Part shown: piece after piece, positions 21,389-24,136 of the stretch
Numbering within the stretch: the stretch's first letter is position 1
Layout of the letters: each line of letters opens with the position of its first letter
Assembly: GCA_947503285.1 (NCBI GenBank)
Contig: CANNDD010000002.1
Location: 186,001-250,000 of the forward strand
DNA from: an uncultured Croceitalea sp.
GTDB lineage: Bacteria > Bacteroidota > Bacteroidia > Flavobacteriales > Flavobacteriaceae
Length of the DNA: 64,000 nt
Direction: 5' to 3'
Notes under the pieces: generated by a model
What the model saw: only the letters and a program-made list of their open reading frames with translations
Told to the model about the DNA's origin: nothing
Database searches by the model: none
Translations under genes and position numbers: made by a program

Positions 21389-24136
21389 CTACTTCCAGCT
21401 GGTCGCCTTTTCGGGCCGTTCTTCGAATTGATAGCGAACATGAGAAAAACGGGCTTTTAATAGCAATCTTCTTCCTTCAAGGGTACGGGTATACACCAAC
21501 TTGGTACCGCCGATATGGGATTTCCATGATTTTAAGAAGGCCTGGGCGCTTTCCTTTTTCCTTCCCAATACAAGGGGAACGGCATAATAGGTTTTATATC
21601 CTAAAAATTGTTTGAGTCCACTGCGTACCCTAAGCAGGTACCTAGGGTTTTCTATAGGGGCTATGATTTCTTCCAATAGCTTTACGAATAGATTCCCATC
21701 ATGCTGATTTGCGCCATTTAAATGAATTGAAAATCGACCATTTTTTTCTTGATAGGCCAAAACGGCCATTTCGTTGGTGGTACTCGTTAGTAGTTTTGCC
21801 TCTTTTAAATATTGATACAGTGCATGGGCTATCTTTTTGGTGCGCTTAAACTGATTTCCAAAGCGGAAATATACCTTTAACGCCTTGAACGTAGCCGGGG
21901 CAAATCCTAGCAAAATTCCAGCCAGCAAAATGTAAACAAATGTCAGCCAACCTTTACCCAATAAGATATCCAGGTTTTTTAGAATAACCTCAGGCAGAAA
22001 AAGTGATAAGCCAACCGCCACTTGAAAAAGGAGGTATTTGGCAACATTAAGGGCATTCAATCGATTTGTTTCCGTAAAATTCTTGTCCCGATTATAGGGC
22101 ATTCGAAGTTCTTGAACCAGAACGTTGCCATTTTGAATTGCAGTCTCCCAACGCGTTTTGACCGAGGTATCTTTGGTGGCCAAATGAATCATTTCAGTAT
22201 TGATGGTATTCAAATCTGCTTCATCATCCCATTCCTCAGGCAAATTCAGACGGCCCAGACCATTCTCGATTACCGGTATTCCTTTGAGGGACACCCCGGT
22301 AAAAGCCAGAAAACGTTGCTTAAGAACAGCTAGATCTTTCCCTCCATCCTTTACGGTGGGATCGATACAGACCAAATGCCATATGTTCCCAATTTTATTG
22401 GAATCATTAGGGTCAATTCTTATGGCTCTTCCCCGCATTTGGTTTGATGAAACAAACGAGCCAACGTAAGACGCAAGAATCAGTGAATTGATACTCGGTG
22501 CATCCCATCCCTCACCCAATAATGATTTTGTACCGATTAGTATTTTTATTTCTCCTTGTTCAAACAGTTTTGTAATGGCAGCCACCATCTTGTTTTTTAC
22601 AGTACTACCCACTGTAATGTGAAAATGTGACTTGCTTGAGACAACGCTGGCCGTTCCGAGTGACTTCAAGTCCAATATCCTTTTGAGATCTTCAATAACC
22701 GTTTTGTGTAATATGATCAAAGTTCCCGTCAATACTGCGGTATATTGCCCTAGATCAGTATGTGCCAAAACATATTGAAAAATGGACACAACGCCTATTT
22801 TTCTTAATTTTTTGGTGTCTTTGCCAGAGAAAGAAAGGTATTCTTTTCGAATAAAATCAGTAAGTACAACTGCCTTTGTCCTACTATTTAAATGTTCAAA
22901 AGTGGCCGTCAAAATTGCCTGTATACCCTCAAACTTACTGGGGCTACTTGCTAGGTTTCTGTACAAACTACGATCCCCAACAAAATCGACTTTGCGCTTT
23001 TCCAACACCCCAATCTGCCGGAGCTCTTTCTCAATGGGAAGGAGCAATTCCTCACTTTTCGAAAAGTGCTCCCTTTCATCAATCAAGAGGTATTGCAGCA
23101 AGGTTTCGGCCCACTCATAGGTAAAGCTCGGAAAGTTGGCCTTTCCATCTTTAAACCCGAGGATTTTCAGTTTTTCCTTTTCGATGGTTTGTCCGGCAGC
23201 CTTTAAAAAAATTAAAATTGATGAGAAGAAGGAGGTGTTTTCATAAACCAATTCTAAAGAACCATTTGCATTGCTGTAGATAGGTAGCTTTTTTAGGAAG
23301 TTGACAAAGCCTTGATTACTGAGCAACCTATTGGTAAAAGCAATGATTTGCGCTCTATAAGCGACAATATATTTTATTTCGGCCTGTTCAGGCTTAGAAA
23401 AATATACATAGTCTTGATGCGGACACAAATCTCCATTTTTGATAAGGTCAGGTACCGCTATTTCATCATCTATAGGGCCACATAAACTAAAGTATCGTTC
23501 CAACTCGTTGGCAGAGCTATCATAGGGCGGAGTGGCCGTAAGTGCAATAATGGTTAAATTCGGTGTAGCCTTTAATGCAAAGAGCGATTTCCACCAGCCG
23601 TTTTTTAGATGATGTGCCTCATCAAGCACCAAAGTTTCAATATTATTTTTTACAATAAAATCAAGCAAGGCTTCATTATCGTTGATACCAAAAGATTTAT
23701 GCAACGAAAATAACGATTGGTATGTTGAAAATGTAAGCTCTTTCGGGTTCTTGATGTCCATAGAAAAGTTATGATACCTTCCTTGGTCATCAAAGAAGGA
23801 TTTCATCCTACTTTTCCATTGGTTGCGAATGGTAAGTGTTGGTGCCAGCACCAAGCTTGGTCTACCAATACGTATCATCATTTCGAGACCCAAGATGGTC
23901 TTTCCCGACCCTGGCGGGGCAACAACATGTAAATGATTGTCGGTTATATGCTCTTTGAAGCCGTTTAGAAAATTTTGCTGGTAATCGCGCCAGTCAAATC
24001 TAAATTTCAGTTGTTTCGTCAAGTTGTTCAAAGAGAAGTCCGTTGGTTTATTAGTGCTATTCCAAATTAAAAGAATAATAATCAAATCAGGGGCATTTGC
24101 AGGGGCATACTTTATATTTGTAGTGTAATATACCAT
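21389..24136 (-). CDS. SF2 DEAD/DEAH helicase with a C-terminal membrane hairpin
   Basis: Up to 915 residues. The N-terminal helicase lobe has the Q-tip region [14 protein letters not shown], Walker A APPGSGKT (73-80), DEAH (172-175) and LTATPP (199-204). The second lobe ends with [19 protein letters not shown] and the motif [10 protein letters not shown], so it is XPB/UvrB-like SF2. Unusually, residues ~695-750 contain two long hydrophobic stretches ([18 protein letters not shown] and [16 protein letters not shown]), then a ~165-residue soluble C-terminal domain rich in Lys and Arg. A membrane-tethered helicase is implied. The ATG at 24136 lies 3 bp from the divergent hemB ATG; the hemB promoter would fall inside the first codons, so a start ~35 codons further in is possible. 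Function unknown. Confidence 0.82.
24113..24120 (+). promoter_or_regulatory. Candidate -7 element for hemB (TATATTTG)
   Basis: TATATTTG matches TAnnTTTG and ends 19 bp before the hemB ATG. It lies within the 5' end of the longest possible helicase frame on the other strand. Confidence 0.5.

Follow-up and report, generated by a model that had tools for sequence, protein, structure and literature searches.

The window, our name for the whole 64,000-nucleotide stretch analysed here from an uncultured Croceitalea sp., encodes on its minus strand a protein that joins an SF2 helicase to a hydrophobic pair and a basic C-terminal tail, an architecture we assign with high confidence. We give an even chance to the explanation that it is an optional, fast-evolving, inner-membrane-tethered SF2 DNA translocase of the XPB/Hef-like group. 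In this model, a two-helix hairpin would tie the motor to the inner membrane and leave both the motor and the basic tail on the cytoplasmic side. ATP hydrolysis would drive movement on DNA, more probably double-stranded, and this movement would be limited to DNA near the membrane; the tail domain would serve to hold or recognise either the DNA or a partner. The likeliest role would be genome protection, or else the processing of DNA that reaches the membrane or already lies there. When bacterial helicases are found at the membrane, it is usually a partner that keeps them there; the present family, which seems to have a removable hairpin of its own, provides a natural comparison of a DNA motor with and without membrane tethering.

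The helicase lies in an unbroken open reading frame at 21389-24136 (−) that encodes 915 residues, and it is the only copy in the source genome at E ≤ 0.001. A preliminary description of the window took this whole span as the gene; the frame itself stands, and translation probably does not begin at the ATG at 24136. The likelier gene is 21389-24031 (−), with 880 residues and a TTG start at 24031-24029, because the start of homologs falls near residue 36 and is most often a TTG. Homolog alignments to the 915-residue frame begin at about residue 21-42, mostly 31-42, and five relatives plus nearly all of a larger homolog set align only from about residue 21-42. The codon 13 positions before the WRxYQ motif is TTG at 29 of the 43 helicase loci (window included), GTG at three, ATG at two and another codon at nine; TTG makes up 18% of leucine codons within the helicase coding body. 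No in-frame ATG occurs between the upstream stop and WRxYQ at 35 of the 43 loci. The window is among the eight that have one, and it also contains another TTG three codons further in than 24031-24029. The recurrent TTG position (29/43 loci) spans several genomic settings. Among neighboring genes, the consensus start has an ATG close by in 24/24 hemB, 20/20 CNNM, 20/21 hemE, 16/18 ogt, 12/13 exonuclease, 20/27 hemF and 1/7 hemA genes, an imperfect control in that neighbors other than hemB are less clean. TTG is not universal in the family, since ATG takes its place in ten helicase copies from a second genus. A TTG start may lower helicase expression. The in-frame extension up to the ATG (24032..24136, −) is mostly unaligned in homologs, overlaps the hemB promoter region, with the −7 box of hemB on its opposite strand, and is probably untranslated.

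The complete helicase motifs noted earlier are indeed present in the translation, and Pfam agrees, matching ResIII (E = 2.3e-21, residues 47-204 of the 915-residue frame) and Helicase_C (residues 512-574, with a score exactly equal to its cut-off of 23.5 bits). Walker A, the DEAx box and motif VI are arranged in two RecA domains and fall in invariant columns over the 42 rows of alignment A1, which comprises the 43 helicase loci less L063, a near-copy of L062. RecA domain 1 (residues 36-240; 23417..24031, −) contains WRxYQ, the Walker motifs, the ResIII match and invariant columns, and matches XPB and Hef by fold; RecA domain 2 (residues 446-635; 22232..22801, −) contains the Helicase_C match and further invariant columns. 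The model secondary structure places a mostly helical insertion between them (residues 241-445; 22802..23416, −), and all of these borders are approximate. The insertion is the least alike part of the core between the window and the related locus L036 (57% vs. 76% and 68%). Of five pairs compared, the two with the least divergence have whole-gene dN/dS values of 0.13 and 0.11, and the remaining three are saturated or nearly so; the two values show purifying selection on the helicase gene in the close pairs tested.

The helicase core is XPB/Hef-like by both sequence and fold. A PDB sequence search returns archaeal Rad25/XPB first (E = 1.1e-10 with the single sequence and 2.8e-18 with a profile), and the AlphaFold model of the 880-residue protein (mean pLDDT 81.5) matches XPB at Z = 17.6 and Hef at Z = 16.5 over residues 1-624 (880-residue numbering). 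The RecA core resembles that of archaeal XPB/Rad25 in both respects, whereas the long helical insertion, the predicted membrane hairpin and the unmatched tail are additions of the window protein. Its score against the curated XPB family NF045503 is 56.5 bits, compared with a cut-off of 610, and the match is confined to residues 30-259. Hef/FANCM/RIG-I-like translocases are also among the fold matches, and they have a helical insertion near the RecA pair, a trait apparently shared with the window helicase; the latter differs in having no recognised nuclease or CARD and in its predicted membrane hairpin. Zorya ZorD (8qy7) appears at Z = 14.7 among generic helicase fold matches. PADLOC matches are confined to the helicase part (best E = 9.7e-14). 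The likeness to PbeA and the other PADLOC helicases stops there, with the tail unmatched, and the best PbeA stretch covers positions 242-480 of 672 rather than the full profile. As for type III Res subunits, no adjacent Mod methyltransferase gene was seen among the window neighbors when the list of open reading frames was read by eye.

Kinship with XPB, Hef and ResIII favors DNA rather than RNA as the probable substrate, with the RIG-I- and Dicer-type fold matches urging caution. RhlB and CshA are kept at the inner membrane through a ribonuclease, and a self-anchored counterpart could take part in RNA processing or decay at the membrane. Chains of RIG-I, MDA5 and Dicer among the fold matches would suit such a function. 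Other bacteria are known to degrade RNA at the membrane, and RhlB is described as a helicase at the inner membrane (PMC4372235). The window protein shares this location in prediction and differs in apparently having its own anchor. Nevertheless, we regard an RNA function as highly doubtful: ResIII and XPB/Rad25 lead the sequence matches, and reading by eye revealed no constant RNA-related neighbor, since only in L006 and L064 is the helicase flanked by trmD- and rplS-like genes (our presumptive names).

The two membrane-length hydrophobic stretches that had been placed near residues 695-750 were found at residues 698-720 (segment 1; 21977..22045, −) and 729-751 (segment 2; 21884..21952, −). 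On the Kyte-Doolittle scale, the highest-scoring 19-residue windows begin at residues 701 (1.91) and 731 (2.01). When the 880-residue protein is shuffled, such a pair arises within 60 residues in 41 of 3000 sequences at a threshold of 1.9 and in 371 of 3000 at 1.6. In the window sequence alone the pair is thus only moderately beyond chance, and it is conservation in the family that makes it convincing. Over the 42 rows of A1, the segments have mean hydropathies of 1.50 and 1.23 and mean top-residue frequencies of 0.40 and 0.45. On the octanol scale, both best hairpin windows are positive in 41 of 42 rows (L073 fails at segment 1), and the better hairpin window outscores every core window in 38 of 42. 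Core windows are also positive in 42/42 rows on this scale, and octanol hydropathy alone is therefore no proof of insertion. Changes that involve a hydrophobic residue stay non-polar in 89% and 95% of cases in the hairpin cores, as compared with 66-71% in four other domains. In columns 698-708 of segment 2 (880-residue numbering), no more than 7% of rows show a polar or charged residue, and 14 consecutive columns (698-711) have at most 10% polar residues. In segment 1, glutamate occupies column 670 in 24 and column 681 in 29 of the 42 rows, and glutamate at two positions is unusual inside a membrane helix. AlphaFold models the hairpin as two long helices of 34 and 50 residues (652-685, which encloses segment 1, and 695-744, the helix of segment 2, both in 880-residue numbering), with pLDDT of only ~62-78. 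The outer flanks have on average 3.6 and 3.8 Lys/Arg per 17 residues versus 1.7 per 13.8 in the loop, a distribution that fits both ends being cytoplasmic. We infer that the segments insert into the membrane with an N-in/C-in topology.

The hydrophobic pair is not universal. It is kept in Paenibacillus (L074) and on two gut contigs (L077 and L078), and within the second genus both windows are positive in nine of 10 intact copies, weakly in L123, with L124 failing at segment 1; one locus of this set (L116) is from the same genome as A1 row L072. Tritonibacter, represented by two records that are 97.3% alike over the whole query, retains the core and tail and has no hairpin. The record examined for hydropathy has a linker of 67 residues, versus 112 in the window, and no positive window. 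Rhodovulum likewise keeps the core and tail, in pieces, and lacks the hairpin. The membrane hairpin proposed in the preliminary description therefore holds up as a conserved feature of Bacteroidota and three further relatives, modeled by AlphaFold as two helices, and fails to extend to Tritonibacter and Rhodovulum. Homologs without the hydrophobic stretches, which that description had named as evidence against the proposal, exist in these two alphaproteobacterial species and not among 41 of the 42 Bacteroidota rows. Given these two species, the hairpin appears to be a removable module.

The same observations could be accommodated by a soluble DNA-repair translocase in which the hydrophobic helices form a dimer or partner interface. 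Core windows are hydrophobic too, a short soluble linker replaces the hairpin in two species, and segment 1 often has its two glutamates. This arrangement is quite improbable in view of the nearly apolar run at columns 698-711 of segment 2, the basic outer flanks and the preservation of hydrophobicity where sequence is not preserved. We are fairly sure that the pair anchors the helicase in the membrane.

The nearest precedent found for a membrane-localized ATPase of this kind is ComFA. In ComFA, a four-cysteine zinc finger precedes Walker A; the window helicase has no cysteine before its Walker A (APPGSGKT). The B. subtilis protein is presented as a membrane-localized ATPase predicted to assist the transport of transforming DNA into the cytoplasm (PMC8262900). 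A ComFA-like motor that pulls transforming DNA through the inner membrane would thus have a precedent; besides the missing cysteines, however, no competence gene was noticed by eye beside 15 loci and six of seven further loci, and the gene is missing from most relatives sampled. DNA uptake is accordingly very improbable as the function. In the features that could be checked, the window helicase departs from ComFA, XPB and PbeA alike.

Returning to the tethered translocase, its C-terminal tail is a basic α/β domain (residues 752-915; 21392..21883, −). The earlier estimate of a basic tail of about 165 residues was accurate, as the last 165 residues contain 32 Lys/Arg and 12 Asp/Glu. Modeled alone, residues 751-915 reach a pLDDT of 83.9. 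The tail has no convincing relative in Pfam, the PDB or viral models. Pfam gives no match to the tail of the window copy at E ≤ 1, nucleases included, and the tails of 42 members yield weak matches to 21 different families, none of them in more than two members. By sequence, nothing in the PDB falls below E = 0.36; by fold, Foldseek returns no match at E ≤ 0.001 against the PDB and viral models, and the best hit of a VIA search has Z = 4.0. The absence of a fold match does not show that the tail has a new fold. Its invariant or nearly invariant residues are mostly basic, aromatic, Pro or Gly; no acidic residue is invariant and one Glu is nearly so. This pattern argues against an acidic-cluster nuclease and for a domain that may bind nucleic acid or phosphate, as far as residue conservation can indicate.

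The gene was originally placed between the hem operon and hemB, and this location is correct: the frame lies between a phzF-like gene, followed by hemF, and hemB. These are our presumptive names for the genes at 20587..21375 (+; cluster 20, found in three loci, namely the window, L036 and L049), 19650..20570 (+; cluster 1) and 24140..25129 (+; cluster 3), the last being divergent from the helicase. Across the 43 helicase loci, hemB adjoins the helicase start or is one gene away in 24 and hemF is within the stretch in 27; several of the remaining stretches are too short to judge. Helicase and hemB protein distances correlate over the 24 loci (r = 0.47; the maximum over 2000 permutations is 0.25), a result in keeping with a gene inherited in place. 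Between the window and L036, identity is 0.64 for the helicase and 0.87 for hemB. Small genes of clusters 13, 16, 19 and 20 come and go between the helicase and hemF in L036-L059, and the interval is therefore variable in general.

Of 22 genomes with no helicase match, 21 gave a hemB locus, and none of these 21 loci contains the helicase. Their 1.5 kb upstream of hemB includes part of hemF in 15, a phzF-like gene in six, either of the two in 16 and neither in five. A decayed remnant that corresponds to helicase residues 7-114 of 880 is found between hemF and hemB in genome G058 (L113:6204-6527). On a hemB tree of 43 rows (24 loci with the helicase and 19 of the 21 without, the distant hemB genes of L098 and L099 being left out), helicase presence requires 12 changes, at least three of them by well-supported branches. 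With shuffled labels the mean is 14.3 changes, and a count as low as the observed one arises in 70-81 of 500 shuffles. Presence is thus not significantly clustered on the tree, and the count of changes cannot tell gain from loss.

At loci where the helicase stands between hemB and the hem genes upstream of it, hemB is more likely to have a promoter of its own. The Bacteroidota-type −7 box has the consensus TAnnTTTG, and in the window a match, TATATTTG, is located ahead of hemB at 24113..24120 (+). Within 150 bp of hemB this pattern occurs at 16 of 22 helicase loci (2.2 expected) versus three of 19 loci without the helicase (L079-L097; 1.2 expected from shuffles), L047 and L004 of the 24 having been left out for want of a hemB start. 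A stricter two-box pattern is found at one of 22 loci with the helicase, the window not being that one, and at none of 19 without. Its place among heme genes is one that the helicase has inherited in Flavobacteriaceae, where close relatives lack the gene, and does not speak for a heme role. A link to the heme pathway was considered and rejected, given that the gene was not detected in the 21 hemB loci from genomes without a helicase match and sits elsewhere in other groups.

One such group is the second genus, which belongs to another family and carries the helicase in 11 of 36 genomes, in each case just downstream of a gene of the uracil-DNA-glycosylase (UDG) superfamily (filled loci L109 and L153-L162; the copy of genome G745, in two pieces, is counted). 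All 25 genomes without the helicase (L128-L152) keep the UDG gene. The next sizeable open reading frame at these sites is a 273-297-residue frame in 18 of 25 and a different gene in seven, and the same frame, as judged by length, follows the helicase in eight of the 11 filled sites. One of the 18 (L137, genome G736) retains a 63-residue helicase remnant. Over 10 genomes, median identity is 0.63 for the helicase and 0.81 for the adjacent UDG gene. At L109, the UDG-superfamily gene ends 2 bp before the helicase. A UDG-helicase module can be discarded, as UDG persists in all 25 second-genus genomes searched that lack the helicase. Within Flavobacteriaceae, UDG is present in 10 of 299 genomes, and one of them (G084) also has the helicase.

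The helicase is similarly sparse in wider surveys. Among 299 genomes of the family, 46 give any match, and by our own count these comprise 32 of the full-length type, the G058 remnant and 13 weak helicase-domain matches. Two of eight genomes of the same genus have it. In the phylum survey, a threshold of E ≤ 1e-30 is reached by 14 of 395 genomes, of which four do not belong to the family; a set of 146 genomes from another class gives three matches, all already among those of the phylum survey. The helicase gene is optional: each lineage has it at a single fixed site, it is frequently absent, remnants of it survive, and its conservation is lower than that of the neighboring genes. Such a pattern marks an optional gene that persists away from the islands in which optional defence genes are usually looked for.

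In being optional, weakly conserved and lost in place, the gene resembles those under changing selection, as in genome protection. We tentatively favor a protective role as the likeliest of those considered, while granting it less than an even chance. Against it, the PADLOC matches lie in the helicase part and the neighbors look ordinary by eye. No constant functional partner was seen among them, and most of them resemble housekeeping genes. Another possibility is abortive infection, in which foreign nucleic acid would be detected by the helicase and tail, and the membrane damaged by the two helices. The two-helix segment, the patchy distribution, the low conservation and the repeated absence with remnants would all be in keeping with such a sensor-effector, yet the hairpin is internal and can be absent, and the only defence-type neighbors identified are one restriction-modification pair (L106). 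We consider this the least likely of the alternatives. A broader proposal is that of a widespread new family of DNA translocases that are anchored in the membrane and have a tail of new fold. They would patrol the inner membrane and sense or act on incoming phage or plasmid DNA, as a one-gene defence encoded at fixed sites outside defence islands, perhaps at low level through the recurrent TTG in many Flavobacteriaceae. Taken as a whole, this proposal is rather unlikely. Among the literature matches listed, mostly non-subscription papers represented by title and the start of the abstract, no account of this helicase family was found.

Plasmid records include four clear relatives among 47 with any match. 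Viral contigs provide three loci, all of which match helicase-domain residues only, and the best PHROG stretches likewise fall in the helicase part. Two records named "Bacteriophage sp." contain full-length relatives, the gut contigs L077 and L078. We take both as bacterial DNA because L078 carries a NUDIX gene and, by eye, transporter-like genes. An origin from a mobile element or phage was set aside, the viral loci being limited to the helicase domain and these two contigs treated as bacterial. On L078, the NUDIX gene (371-1003) overlaps the helicase start by 4 bases. Finally, the stretch beside the helicase on L106 (3253-5738) contains an Eco47II-type endonuclease, a short open reading frame of the integrase family and a C5 methyltransferase whose start is MerR-like; a possible link to restriction was set aside, as this arrangement occurs on a single contig.
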